Origin: Paenibacillus sp. UNC451MF
GTDB taxonomy: Bacteria > Bacillota > Bacilli > Paenibacillales > NBRC-103111
DNA length: 64,000 bases
NCBI RefSeq assembly: GCF_000686845.1
Contig: NZ_JMLS01000008.1
Span: 1-64,000, forward strand
Reading direction: 5' to 3'
Shown: piece after piece, positions 56,590-63,266 of the stretch
How the letters are laid out: each line of letters opens with the position of its first letter
Numbering within the stretch: the first letter of the stretch is position 1
Translations under genes and position numbers: made by a program
Notes under the pieces: model-generated
Database searches by the model: none
What the model was told of the DNA's origin: nothing
What the model saw: the letters and a program-made list of their open reading frames with translations, nothing else

Positions 56590-56619
56590 TTGACACAGAC
56601 CTTCGGGTCTGTTATTTTT
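56590..56619 (+). promoter_or_regulatory. Putative hrcA promoter overlapped by GNAT terminator
   Basis: TTGACA (56590-56595), 17 bp, TATTTT (56613-56618) fits a SigA promoter whose start would fall near the CIRCE. The spacer also forms ACAGACC-TTCG-GGTCTGT (56594-56611) before TATTTTTG, a good terminator for the upstream gene. Confidence 0.55.
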
Positions 56620-56629
56620 GTATTATGAA

Positions 56630-56656
56630 TTAGCACTCAACAGTTCGGAGTGCTAA
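56630..56656. promoter_or_regulatory. CIRCE operator (HrcA binding site)
   Basis: TTAGCACTC-N9-GAGTGCTAA, a perfect match to the CIRCE consensus. HrcA binds here and represses the whole hrcA operon until heat shock titrates GroEL. The operator lies about 86 nt before the hrcA start. Confidence 0.98.
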
Positions 56657-56741: not shown

Positions 56742-57767
56742 ATGTTGACCGAACGCCAGCGGCATATATTGAGTGCTATCGTAGATGATTATATTCGTTC
56801 AGCAGAGCCGGTAGGCTCCCGCAGTATATCTAAGCGCGGCAATGTGGGATTCAGCCCTGCCACCATACGCAATGAAATGTCCGACTTGGAAGAGATGGGC
56901 TATTTGGAACAGCCGCACACGTCCGCAGGACGTATCCCGTCTCATAAAGGCTACCGTTATTATGTCGATCACCTGGTCACATTCGGCAGTCTGGCGGAGC
57001 ATGAAGTTGAAGCGCTCAAATGTTTTTTCTCGGAAAAAATGCAGGAGATGGAGCAAGTCATTCAGCATGTAGCTATGATGTTGTCCAATCTTACTAACTA
57101 TACATCGATTGTCATGGGACCGGAAATGTTCAGCACAACGCTGCGTCATCTGCAGATCGTGCCGCTGAATGAACGAACGGCGGTTGCTATTGTTGTGACG
57201 AACACGGGACATGTTGAGAACAAGACAGTAACGATTCCGGAAGGAATTCCTGTCTCGGAAATTGAAAAGTTCGTCAATTTGCTTAATGCTCGGCTTCAGA
57301 ATGTGCCGCTGCTGCATTTTAAATCCAAGCTGTTCAGTGAAATTGGCGAGGAGATGCGCAGCTACGTATCAGGATATGAGGAACTGATGGCGATGCTTAA
57401 TAACGTTGTTGATCAGGACGAAGAAAACCGGATTTTCCTGGGCGGAACAACCAATATGCTGACGCAGCCCGAGTTTCAGGATATGGAGAAGGTAAAGAAC
57501 ATTCTCGATTTACTGGCAGAGGCGCCAATGCTTGCAAAGCTGATCACGGGTATGCATTCAGGTATTCAAGTCAAGATCGGGAGCGAAAACTCTGTTGCAG
57601 CGATCAATGATTGCAGCCTTATAACCGCTTCATATTCGTTTGACGGCAAGCACCTTGGAACCATCGGTATTCTTGGGCCTACACGGATGGATTACGGTAA
57701 AGTGATTAATTTGCTGGACCACTTGTCTAAAGATATGACGCTGATGCTGGAGCGATGGTATAAATGA
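56742..57767 (+). CDS. hrcA: Heat-inducible transcription repressor HrcA
   Basis: A 341-residue repressor. ATG 56742 follows GGGAGGG and gives MLTERQRHILSAIVDDYIRS. The winged helix reads SKRGNVGFSPATIRNEMSDL and GYLEQPHTSAGRIPSHKGYR. The C-terminal part (GSENSVAAINDCSLITASYS, IGILGPTRMDYGKVINLLDH) is the effector/dimerisation domain. It binds the CIRCE upstream and so regulates itself, grpE, dnaK, dnaJ and the chaperonin gene that overlaps its stop codon. Confidence 0.97.
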   Translation: MLTERQRHILSAIVDDYIRSAEPVGSRSISKRGNVGFSPATIRNEMSDLEEMGYLEQPHTSAGRIPSHKGYRYYVDHLVTFGSLAEHEVEALKCFFSEKMQEMEQVIQHVAMMLSNLTNYTSIVMGPEMFSTTLRHLQIVPLNERTAVAIVVTNTGHVENKTVTIPEGIPVSEIEKFVNLLNARLQNVPLLHFKSKLFSEIGEEMRSYVSGYEELMAMLNNVVDQDEENRIFLGGTTNMLTQPEFQDMEKVKNILDLLAEAPMLAKLITGMHSGIQVKIGSENSVAAINDCSLITASYSFDGKHLGTIGILGPTRMDYGKVINLLDHLSKDMTLMLERWYK

Positions 57768-59305
57768 GCCAAATTAAGCCTGTCACACACGAAGGCGATG
57801 ATACGTATGCAACGCTGTTGAATAATGCGGGAGCCATCCGCGCAATTTGTTCGGCTGTTGAAGGTACGCTCGGGCCTAAGGGTCTGGATACGATGCTGGT
57901 CGGCGGACAGGGCGAAGTCATTATAACGAATGACGGTGTGACCATTTTGGAAAAGATGGACGTTACCCATCCTGCGGCACGCCTCTTGATTCAAGTAGCG
58001 CGTTCCCAACAACAGCAAGTAGGAGATGGAACAACGACTGCTACGGTATTAGCGGGAGCACTGGTAGCCGAAGGCGTGGCACAGGTTACTCGTGGTGTTC
58101 CCGTAGCCAAGGTAGTCAGAGGGATTCAGCAAGGAGTTGCCGCGGCCTTGGCATCGCTTGCTAAGCGAAGTCGGCGCATTGAAGGCTTAAAAGATCCGCT
58201 TCTGTATCGTATAGGATATATAGCCGGTCGTGAGCATTCCGACTTGGCAGAGCTTGTGCTTAATGGAGCTCAGCGATTAGGAGTTCATAAGCTGCAGGAG
58301 GAAAACTTCCGATTTGCGGATGTGGTCGTATCACACAGCCGAGCCGTTAGTGAAGTGTGGCCCGGACTTCTCATTCAGAAGAAGCCGGTCAATTCACAGC
58401 TTGAGTTTCCGCCTGATGCGGCATCGGTTCTTGTTTTTCAGGATGCTTTCGAGCCTGAGACCATCGACGAGGAAGCTCTTATGACCGAGGCTGGCTTTCA
58501 GAAGCAAATGCAGCTGAAGGAGCAATTCCGTAAGTCGCTTGAGAAGCTCGTAGAGCTGCAGGTTGGGCTTATCATCGCGGATCGGGGCGTGAATGCGGAG
58601 GCGGAGCAGTTTTGTACCGATCATGGGATCATGGTCGTACAGCGTGTACCGCGCTCCGATCTTAGGCTCGTGTGCGAGTATACCGGAGCAAGGCCAATCC
58701 GTCGCAGCGGGCTTCGTAAGCCGTCCTCTGAGCTTGCAGGCTACCTGGGCTTCGCCGGACGCGTTTCGTACGACGAGCGTCTCGAGTGCGTACGAATGGC
58801 TGAGGGCAAGGGCAGGACGCAGGTGACCATCGTCGTTGGTGCCAGCACAAGCGAGGTTGTAGGAGAGCGGCTGCGCATCGCAAGGGATGCGGCCTCCGCC
58901 GTACAGGCAGCACTGCGAGGCGGGTGTTTGCCAGGCGGTGGCGCTGCCGAAATGGCGGCTGCCTACGAGCTGGATCGTCTGAGAGAGACGATCCAAGGCA
59001 TGGAGGGCTTCGGCGTAGCAGCAGTAGCCCAAGCGCTTCGCAAGCCGCTTGCACAGATCGTCGTCAATGCGGGCTACAATCCGCTTGAGAAGGTCGAAGA
59101 AGTGAAGGCGGCGCAAATAAACGCGGGCACTGATGCACTTGGCGTCGATTGCGATACCGGTGCCGTCATCGATATGCTGGAGCATGGTGTTGTCGATCCT
59201 GCTCATGTGAAGCTGCATGCACTTCAAGCAGCAGGAGAGGTGGCTGCTGCTGTGCTTAGGATTCATACCGTCATTAAGATGAAGCAGCCACGAGCTGAAG
59301 AATAA
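57764..59305 (+). CDS. Group III (archaeal/thermosome-like) chaperonin
   Basis: A 513-residue chaperonin of the TCP-1/thermosome lineage, not GroEL. LGPKGLDTMLV is at 36-45, ITNDGVTILEKMDVTHPAA with catalytic Asp57, VGDGTTTATVLAG with Asp88, and RDAASAV with Asp375 placed exactly 16 residues before GGGA (as GroEL Asp398). A roughly 50-residue segment (223-274) corresponds to the apical helical protrusion that serves as a lid instead of GroES. The end, VDCDTGAVIDMLEHGVVDP and LHALQAAGEVAAAVLRIHTV, is thermosome-like. The ATG overlaps the hrcA stop by 4 nt (ATGA). Carboxydothermus hydrogenoformans has such a gene in its dnaK operon. Confidence 0.9.
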   Translation: MSQIKPVTHEGDDTYATLLNNAGAIRAICSAVEGTLGPKGLDTMLVGGQGEVIITNDGVTILEKMDVTHPAARLLIQVARSQQQQVGDGTTTATVLAGALVAEGVAQVTRGVPVAKVVRGIQQGVAAALASLAKRSRRIEGLKDPLLYRIGYIAGREHSDLAELVLNGAQRLGVHKLQEENFRFADVVVSHSRAVSEVWPGLLIQKKPVNSQLEFPPDAASVLVFQDAFEPETIDEEALMTEAGFQKQMQLKEQFRKSLEKLVELQVGLIIADRGVNAEAEQFCTDHGIMVVQRVPRSDLRLVCEYTGARPIRRSGLRKPSSELAGYLGFAGRVSYDERLECVRMAEGKGRTQVTIVVGASTSEVVGERLRIARDAASAVQAALRGGCLPGGGAAEMAAAYELDRLRETIQGMEGFGVAAVAQALRKPLAQIVVNAGYNPLEKVEEVKAAQINAGTDALGVDCDTGAVIDMLEHGVVDPAHVKLHALQAAGEVAAAVLRIHTVIKMKQPRAEE

Positions 59306-59427
59306 CAATTTTTATCCGGTCATCCGCAGATTCCTTCAACTAAATTTGCTTACATCAGGGATGGTCTGGTTAAAATAAATAAATAACAACTATAACAATC
59401 GGATTCGGATCAAGGAGGTGACAGATA

Positions 59428-60000
59428 TTGAGTACTGAACAAAAAAACCAATTCGAAAACCAAGCGGACAACGGGCAAGAGGTTGACGCTACATATAACG
59501 AAGATACCGATACTGCAGCAGATCAACAACAAGAGGCAGCAAATGAGCAGTCCGGTGAGCTGGAGCAGCTTCGTCAGCTGGCGGAGGAAAATTACCAACG
59601 CTCCCTTCGGGCCCAAGCGGATTTCGATAACTTTAGAAGACGTACGCGTCAAGAAAAAGAAGAGTTCGCTAAATATGCTTCCTTGAAGGTGGTTGAGCAG
59701 CTTCTTCCGGTAGTGGATAACTTCGAAAGAGCCTTAGCCGCAAGTAAAGATAGCAAAGATTATGATTCATTGTTGAAGGGAGTCGATATGATTTTCCGTC
59801 AATTGGATCAAGTTCTTGGTAACGAAGGCTTGAAAGCAATGGATGCTGTAGGACAACCGTTTAATCCAGAGTTCCACCAAGCGATTATGCAGGTAGAGTC
59901 CGACGAGCATGAGGAAGGCATCGTAGTGGAAGAAGTTCAAAAAGGTTACATGCTCAAGGATAAAGTGCTGCGTCCTGCAATGGTGAAAGTGAGTTCCTAG
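59428..60000 (+). CDS. grpE: Nucleotide exchange factor GrpE
   Basis: A 190-residue co-chaperone that releases ADP from DnaK. It starts at TTG after an exceptionally strong SD, AAGGAGGTGA (59412-59421), which supports the non-ATG start. The acidic N-terminus is followed by the long dimer coiled coil and FDNFRRRTRQEKEEFAKYAS, then the C-terminal beta domain with GLKAMDAVGQPFNPEFHQAI and KGYMLKDKVLRPAMVKVS. Third gene downstream of hrcA; a weak internal promoter may lie in the 122-nt gap. Confidence 0.97.
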   Translation: MSTEQKNQFENQADNGQEVDATYNEDTDTAADQQQEAANEQSGELEQLRQLAEENYQRSLRAQADFDNFRRRTRQEKEEFAKYASLKVVEQLLPVVDNFERALAASKDSKDYDSLLKGVDMIFRQLDQVLGNEGLKAMDAVGQPFNPEFHQAIMQVESDEHEEGIVVEEVQKGYMLKDKVLRPAMVKVSS

Positions 60001-60095: not shown

Positions 60096-61943
<1,848 letters not shown>

Positions 61944-62008: not shown

Positions 62009-62150
62009 CTATGTAGAATAGGAATTTGGCTATTGGCGATAAAACCTACTTGCTTACGAAGCGATTTTTGCTAGAGCAAAACTTTAGGTCGTTCATCTTG
62101 GGATGCGTCGGCAGACGTTTTCTCATGGCTTTAAGAATGGGAGTGGAAGA

Positions 62151-63266
62151 ATGAGTAAACGCGATTTTTACGAGGTACTTGGGGTAGGCAAGGAAGCTTC
62201 GCAAGATGAAATTAAAAAGGCTTATCGCCAAATGGCCCGGCAATTCCATCCGGACGTTAACAAAGCTCCAGACGCGGAACAAAAGTTTAAGGAAGCAAAG
62301 GAAGCTTATGACGTTCTGAGCGATGACCAGAAAAAAGCGCAATATGACCGATTTGGTCATGTCGATCCGAATCAAGGCATGGGTGGCGCCGGCGGTGCCG
62401 ATTTTGGTGGCTTTGGCGATTTGTTCGATATGTTTTTTGGCGGCGGGGGCCAACGTCGTAACCCGAATGCTCCGCAGCGAGGCAACGATTTGCAGTACAC
62501 GCTGACTATCGAATTTAAAGAAGCGGTATTCGGTAAAGAAACGGATATTCATATTCCGCGCACTGAAACCTGCGAAACATGTCATGGCAATGGCGCGAAA
62601 CCGGGAACGAAGCCCGAAACTTGTACCGTGTGTAAAGGTAGCGGTCAGCAGGAAGTCGTTCAGAACACAGCTTTTGGCCGGATCGTTAATCGCCGGGTAT
62701 GTTCGGCCTGCGGTGGCCAGGGCGTAACGATCAAGGAAAAATGCGGCACTTGTCATGGATCCGGAAAAGTGAAAAAGCAGCGCACTATTCATCTGAATAT
62801 CCCTGCGGGCGTAGATGACGGAGCACAGCTTCGTGTTTCCGGTGAAGGTGAATCGGGTACACGCGGAGGTCCAGCTGGTGATTTGTACGTTGTTATTCGC
62901 GTGAAGTCGCATGATTTCTTCGAGCGCGAAGGCGACGATATTTATTGCGAAATCCCTCTAACCTTTGCGCAAGCGGCGCTTGGTGACGAGATTGAAATTC
63001 CTACGCTAACGGAAAAGGTTAAGCTGAAAATTCCGGCGGGGACACAAACCGATACGTACTTCCGCTTGAAAGGCAAAGGCGTACCTCGTTTAAGAGGATA
63101 CGGTCAAGGGGATCAGCACGTGAAGGTCGTTGTCGTCACGCCGACGAATATGAATGACGAGCAAAAAGAATTGCTGCGAGAGTTTTCACGCCTCAGCGGA
63201 GAAAATACGCATGAACAGCAGCAATCTATCTTTGAGCGCATGAAAAAGGCGTTTTTAGGGGACTAA
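62151..63266 (+). CDS. dnaJ: Chaperone protein DnaJ (Hsp40)
   Basis: A 371-residue type I J-protein. ATG 62151 ([12 protein letters not shown]) is the family start and follows GGGAGTGG. The J-domain has [10 protein letters not shown] (HPD). A Gly/Phe-rich linker ([15 protein letters not shown]) and four zinc-finger repeats ([32 protein letters not shown]) follow, then the C-terminal substrate domain. Last gene of the CIRCE operon. Confidence 0.97.

Follow-up and report, generated by a model that had tools for sequence, protein, structure and literature searches.

The prototype of the Group III chaperonins is Ch-CPN from Carboxydothermus hydrogenoformans, solved as PDB 5x9u and 5x9v. According to the main text of PMC5635000, the members of this group come mostly from extreme environments and, one exception aside, their genes belong to the DnaK operon. 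It has been proposed that DnaK hands clients to them (PMC5220055; PMC5635000, main text), and the part of PMC5904260 that cites Techtmann and Robb (2010) places both chaperonin types under HrcA in Firmicutes that possess both. Another described member is ACIII, a reconstructed Group III ancestor of artificial sequence (PDB 9rwq; the molecule name in the PDB is ACII, whereas the main text of PMC12696368 assigns 9RWQ to ACIII). The stretch of 64,000 nucleotides considered here (the window; contig NZ_JMLS01000008.1 of Paenibacillus sp. UNC451MF, positions 1 to 64,000) harbors an open and complete reading frame on the forward strand at 57764-59305 (ATG start, 513 amino acids) whose product is, by its sequence and modelled fold, a Group III chaperonin. 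With a probability of about 0.88, it is an intact, canonical and probably active member of the group, controlled by HrcA and carrying its own lid, that would play a minor part beside GroEL/GroES and would have been inherited with its operon. The family, its operon place and its HrcA control are already published, and the window gene is new in detail only.

A first-pass annotation, made from the letters alone, had proposed the Group III identity, and this proposal holds: it is borne out by a tree that joins the protein with Ch-CPN, by loop and lid lengths, by marker residues and by Ch-CPN being the closest solved fold. The Pfam family Cpn60_TCP1 covers residues 30-507 (1.8e-106), and the NCBIfam models for thermosome, CCT and GroEL all match below their cut-offs (270.4 against a cut-off of 671.1 for TIGR02339, the thermosome model). 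The closest PDB sequences are 9rwq, the best match (596 bits, residues 9-509), and Ch-CPN 5x9u. A tree of 91 rows took in 82 of the 87 loci fetched, the window protein, three PDB chains, three haloarchaeal thermosomes and two GroELs, with no CCT row; for CCT the comparison used NCBIfam models, PDB sequences and the fold. All 84 rows of Group III, the window protein and Ch-CPN among them, lie on one side of a branch with a support of 91, and the Group II and Group I branches (99 and 100, respectively) both stand apart from Group III. The phylogeny that had been suggested as a check thus puts the chaperonin outside GroEL and the thermosomes and together with the Carboxydothermus protein. An AlphaFold2 model built from 28 sequences (mean predicted local distance difference test, pLDDT, of 82.7; predicted template modelling score, pTM, of 0.79) found the closed and open Ch-CPN crystals as its top two Foldseek matches (template modelling score 0.84). 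The helical protrusion that a structure model had been expected to contain is present as a lid helix at residues 242-264, the means of ten-residue blocks being 83-95 across residues 221-280.

Marker positions were read in an alignment that combined five Group II rows and the GroEL rows with 83 rows of Group III (81 distinct), and wider residue counts were made over 147 Group III rows, of which 141 are distinct. The features within the gene are as follows, all coordinates in this text being window positions:

57764..59305, forward strand: Group III chaperonin gene, 513 amino acids (Pfam, PDB sequence match, tree, alignment, fold)
57932..57934, forward strand: codon of Asp57, equivalent to the catalytic Asp56 of Ch-CPN (alignment)
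58025..58027, forward strand: codon of Asp88 in GDGTT, kept in 141/141 distinct Group III rows (alignment)
58229..58231, forward strand: codon of Arg156, equivalent to Ch-CPN Arg155, which contacts the ATP gamma-phosphate; 141/141 distinct rows (alignment)
58430..58585, forward strand: apical lid region, residues 223-274 (alignment and model)
58505-58507, forward strand: codon of Gln248, at the position of Ch-CPN Tyr246 (alignment)
58886..58888, forward strand: codon of Asp375, equivalent to the catalytic Asp373 of Ch-CPN; 141/141 distinct rows (alignment)

The three aspartates named beforehand as catalytic (Asp57, Asp88 and Asp375) proved to be family positions in this alignment, and the apical insertion at 223-274, which had been described as protrusion-sized, corresponds to a lid region of 52 residues in 83/83 Group III rows (in the five rows of Group II it has 56-58) around the modelled helix. 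Additionally, the protein has no counterpart of the six-residue nucleotide-sensing loop found in Group II, the segment having 15 residues in 83/83 Group III rows and in Ch-CPN as opposed to 21 in the five Group II rows. In the printed alignment, ACIII likewise lacks this loop. Besides the loop, the protein shares with Ch-CPN the arginine (155 there, 156 here), the catalytic Asp pair, the 52-residue lid and the lid-tip residues L239, F245 and F255 (Leu237, Phe243 and Phe253 of Ch-CPN); it differs from it by an identity of 43% over the Foldseek alignment and by Gln248 in place of Tyr246, and the source of Ch-CPN is, according to the main text of PMC5635000, an extreme thermophile. The thermosomes and CCT (Group II) have in common with it the three-domain fold, the built-in lid, the GDGTTT and NDG motifs and the catalytic Asp positions, but in the five Group II rows the nucleotide-sensing loop is longer by six residues and the lid region by four to six, and the Group II rows of the tree form a separate branch; both the score below the thermosome cut-off and the absent loop argue against thermosome membership. 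GroEL (Group I) belongs to the same Cpn60_TCP1 family, but its rows are gapped across the lid helix and form another branch, and the window protein stays below the GroEL cut-offs.

The gene lies in an operon that begins with a CIRCE element (controlling inverted repeat of chaperone expression):

56590..56618, forward strand: promoter-like site (TTGACA-17-TATTTT, the second hexamer following a TG), directly upstream of CIRCE
56630..56656, forward strand: CIRCE operator (HrcA binding site), exact TTAGCACTC-N9-GAGTGCTAA (motif match)
56742..57767, forward strand: hrcA (repressor), ATG start preceded by GGGAGG (TIGR00331, 360.9 bits against a cut-off of 197.2)
57764..57767, forward strand: ATGA shared by the hrcA stop (codon 57765-57767) and the chaperonin start (read from the sequence)
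59428..60000, forward strand: grpE, TTG start preceded by AAGGAGG (Pfam and NCBIfam)
60102..61943, forward strand: dnaK (Pfam and NCBIfam)
62151..63266, forward strand: dnaJ, ATG start used here, the list of open reading frames starting it at 62103 (Pfam and NCBIfam)

The placement in a CIRCE-controlled operon was also right as first annotated, with the exact CIRCE at 56630-56656 followed by hrcA, chaperonin, grpE, dnaK and dnaJ, and both the four-nucleotide overlap with the hrcA stop and the downstream grpE can be read directly in the sequence. The window has no second CIRCE match, even at a tolerance of three mismatches (0 expected in shuffles), and an exact copy occurs in 136/160 fetched loci, a set with some overlapping and some unrelated regions, 68/68 of L003-L070 among them (L-numbers denote fetched loci and G-numbers genomes of relatives). 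Both an operator ahead of the operon and an hrcA gene, as expected of a CIRCE/HrcA regulon, are present. The promoter-like site before it has 10/12 consensus bases and is weak alone, such sites being found 7 times against 4.1 expected. A terminator-like hairpin (56595-56612) followed by T-rich sequence, 3' of the upstream acetyltransferase gene, overlaps this site. Between chaperonin and grpE, no terminator-like site was found on the forward strand, the single promoter-like site (9 of 12 bases, 59349-59376) is at chance level, and no second CIRCE before grpE was found at up to three mismatches; a search of 52-64 kb with Rfam gave no match at gathering level. The same genome has its own groEL and its own groES (Cpn10, 3.7e-36), with a CIRCE of one mismatch about 45 nucleotides upstream of groES. 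Since CIRCE precedes both operons, the Group III chaperonin and GroEL are both likely under HrcA. In a close relative (G009:C1:674187-675399), a second, fragmentary GroEL-like stretch lies just 3' of groEL.

From this arrangement and from what is described for Ch-CPN, the following working can be proposed. HrcA bound at CIRCE would repress the whole operon, and heat or misfolding would relieve the repression. The subunits would assemble into a double eight-membered ring, as in Ch-CPN, in which ATP binding would close the chamber with the apical lid and no GroES; clients would be refolded after hand-over by DnaK or after direct capture. In cells that also make GroEL and GroES the chaperonin would be a minor, low-abundance partner. 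Co-induction with DnaK and GroES-independent folding, both put forward in the first-pass annotation, fit the anatomy of the locus and the Ch-CPN literature.

The gene has the same place in all carrier loci that were read. A contig scan of genomes gave 68 loci, 65 of them under the NCBI name Paenibacillus, and the order hrcA-chaperonin-grpE-dnaK was observed in 68/68 of these, in 19/19 further Bacillota loci and in 20/20 loci from other families of the order and of the class, which were picked from carriers found in the order and class draws. In its own family, 91 of 104 genomes carry the chaperonin and 13 have no match, and in the wider draws carriers amount to 127/392 genomes of the order, 61/398 of the class and 128/398 of the phylum. 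In eight loci that lack the gene (L102-L104, L106-L110), grpE comes next after hrcA, its first matched part lying 195-309 nucleotides away, and all eight retain hrcA and an exact CIRCE. An uninterrupted single match is present in 89 of the 91 family carriers. Broken copies are found in G015 (L105/L202), where the middle is lost and the two remaining pieces lie in different frames, and in G189 (L149), with one frame break; in G091 (L112, L114) hrcA is broken as well as the chaperonin, so a sequence error is likely there. Internal stops flagged by the search in G033, G224 and G934 are absent from the matched frames on reading of the loci.

The ATGA overlap between hrcA and chaperonin occurs in 54 of 68 related loci and makes translational coupling of the chaperonin to hrcA likely. 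Ahead of the chaperonin ATG, the ribosome-binding site is of the GGAG type and weak, in contrast to the strong sites of grpE and dnaK (AAGGAGG and AAAGGAGG, respectively). This weak site, the overlap and the gap in third-position guanine plus cytosine content (GC3) to dnaK together suggest coupled synthesis at a level lower than that of DnaK; the chaperonin would thus be made by coupling to HrcA and would stay below GrpE and DnaK. A wider scheme can be drawn, in which the gene is an ancestral part of the Bacillota operon with many losses and, in the kin of the window, is translated at a low level in step with HrcA; the ring would help HrcA to fold and, next to GroEL, would serve as a second sensor of heat, and the maintained GC-rich middle would suit slow, low-level expression. 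As a whole this scheme is unlikely. Improbable, too, is its core taken alone, namely that HrcA is the main client and that coupling sets the ring beside newly made HrcA as part of the heat sensor. GroEL reportedly plays such a role for HrcA in Bacillus subtilis, and the frequency of the overlap as well as the position of the chaperonin directly after hrcA in every carrier locus read would suit it. However, overlaps between adjacent operon genes are frequent and need not reflect a functional link, and the persistence of hrcA and exact CIRCE in the eight loci lacking the chaperonin indicates that it is not generally required for HrcA.

Regarding descent, pairwise distances over 105 rows gave Spearman correlations of 0.851 between chaperonin and HrcA, 0.849 between chaperonin and DnaK and 0.863 between HrcA and DnaK. 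The mean distance is 0.338 for the chaperonin, 0.299 for HrcA and 0.116 for DnaK, that is, about three times the DnaK rate and near the HrcA rate. The simplest reading of these sequence comparisons is vertical descent with the operon inside Bacillota and repeated loss, for which the gene would have to be dispensable enough; the operon segment may also have been transferred as a whole between Bacillota lineages, and the data are silent on a deeper archaeal origin.

The first-pass annotation had further noted that parts of the gene look richer in GC than dnaK or grpE and had taken this as a hint of an older transfer. The first half of that claim is real, with a GC of 0.61 at 58.5-59.25 kb and a raised segment in the middle of the gene:

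58484..59113, forward strand: segment of raised GC3, codons 241-450 (GC3 in 60-codon steps)

In these steps GC3 is 0.62-0.70 over codons 241-450 and 0.40-0.53 over codons 1-240. Gene-wide, the chaperonin (0.542) is close to hrcA (0.540) and lepA (0.526), and the contrast is exaggerated by the low GC3 of dnaK itself (0.396). In a genome sample, 24 of 112 open reading frames of 250 amino acids or more have a GC3 at least as high as the chaperonin, itself counted; the unusual part is the 150-codon peak of 0.673, reached by 5 of the 112, again with the chaperonin counted. Over the 68 loci, the later part of the gene exceeds the earlier in GC in 63, and the chaperonin is richer than hrcA in 66 and richer than dnaK in 67. 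At fourfold sites, codons 301-400 are richer than codons 1-100 in 26/32 and 29/32 loci of two Paenibacillus sets, which are defined by NCBI name and not identical with family f1 (L061 has the chaperonin of G224, of family f10), and in 3/9 loci from other families of the order, 1/10 from the rest of the class and 5/21 from other Bacillota. The hump is shared by most of L003-L067 though their silent sites vary widely between species.

Transfer of the gene, recently or anciently, from an archaeon or another bacterium into the Paenibacillus dnaK operon would account for a middle richer in GC than dnaK or grpE and for the patchy carriage in the order and class, and yet it is a quite improbable explanation. 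It predicts that the whole gene is unusual with a signature that fades, whereas here a segment is kept, so the hint of transfer is unsupported; most carriers in sister families are without the hump, which indicates that it arose once the gene was already in place. Moreover, the position between hrcA and grpE is the same in all carrier loci read, whether of the same genus or of other families of Bacillota (68/68, 19/19 and 20/20 loci), the distances follow those of hrcA and dnaK, and the hump is confined to the wider kin of the window, and on these grounds the older transfer was abandoned. Least probable is a decaying, non-functional relic retained by its position in an essential operon, to which the relatives without a match, the few broken copies (G015, G189) and the roughly threefold faster evolution than DnaK might point, but which conflicts with an intact window copy, with 89/91 uninterrupted family carriers, with D88, R156 and D375 in 141/141 distinct rows and D57 in 132/141, and with a rate near that of HrcA.

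Several points weigh against an intact, canonical and probably active Group III chaperonin inherited with its operon. The tree was made by a quick method whose tool warned of long branches meeting at the group joins, and the support of 91 for the Group III branch is below the tool's starred level of 95. Within the equatorial domain, the model is of low confidence at residues 1-10, 33-43, 45-48 and 55-62. In the distance test, the DnaK sequences of L083-L101 are incomplete and a few of the rows are nearly the same, such as L061 and L150 with identical chaperonins. Among the 13 family genomes without a match, G017 is 70% complete and its contig ends inside hrcA, so that its lack of the gene is not shown. 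The GC3 of the chaperonin lies far from that of dnaK (0.542 versus 0.396), which makes expression equal to dnaK unlikely, and what was observed comprises sequence group, catalytic residues, lid region, predicted fold, operon place and operator, expression, assembly and activity being predicted. Finally, the main text of PMC5635000 calls the lid-tip residues Leu237, Phe243, Tyr246 and Phe253 strictly conserved in Group III, and the tyrosine is Gln248 in the window protein. At this position the 83 Group III rows have Y in 45, Q in 28, F in 6 and H in 4; with a residue other than tyrosine in 38/83 rows, the Tyr246 position is not group-defining. Glutamine is found there in 45 of the 141 distinct rows, and the clade of the window protein has it.

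The word Paenibacillus is absent from the main texts of PMC5220055, PMC12696368 and PMC5635000, the supplementary list of 195 sequences of the latter possibly including the genus, and literature on Paenibacillus with Group III chaperonins contained, as judged by titles and the beginnings of abstracts, nothing on the family. The locus adds Paenibacillus and its relatives to Group III, in a genome that also bears GroEL and GroES, and the existence of close relatives with and without the gene makes the need for a Group III chaperonin beside GroEL/GroES testable. Its constant place and matched divergence argue that the gene travels with the operon inside Bacillota. What is usefully added is that the hrcA overlap is conserved, that there is evidence of descent with the operon, that some relatives lack the gene, that a lid-tip residue varies and that members with an Asp-to-Ala change, described below, occur naturally.

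An antisense open reading frame (58394-59308, 304 amino acids) was rejected as a gene: it has no Pfam match, its openness is unconserved (47 to 513 codons in 64 rows), and avoidance of the three relevant codons is equally present in hrcA and dnaK.

The first catalytic aspartate (Asp57 in the window protein) is replaced by alanine in 10 of the 147 Group III rows, or 9 of the 141 distinct ones, with the motif NAG(V/A)T in place of NDGVT; as part of a set of 40 loci was fetched to look for this change, 9/141 is not an unbiased frequency. The members concerned are L068, L070 (identical to L163), L091, L092, L160, L161, L162, L185 and L186, which comprise 3/3 rows of family f72, 2/2 of f137 (one of them identical to L070), f35, the unplaced assembly of L068 and 1/10 rows of f163. 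At least two changes are required by the tree, and D88, R156 and D375 are kept in every one of these members. A comparable change in GroEL slows ATP turnover, and by this analogy the Asp-to-Ala members may be natural slow-cycle (slow-ATPase) Group III chaperonins.

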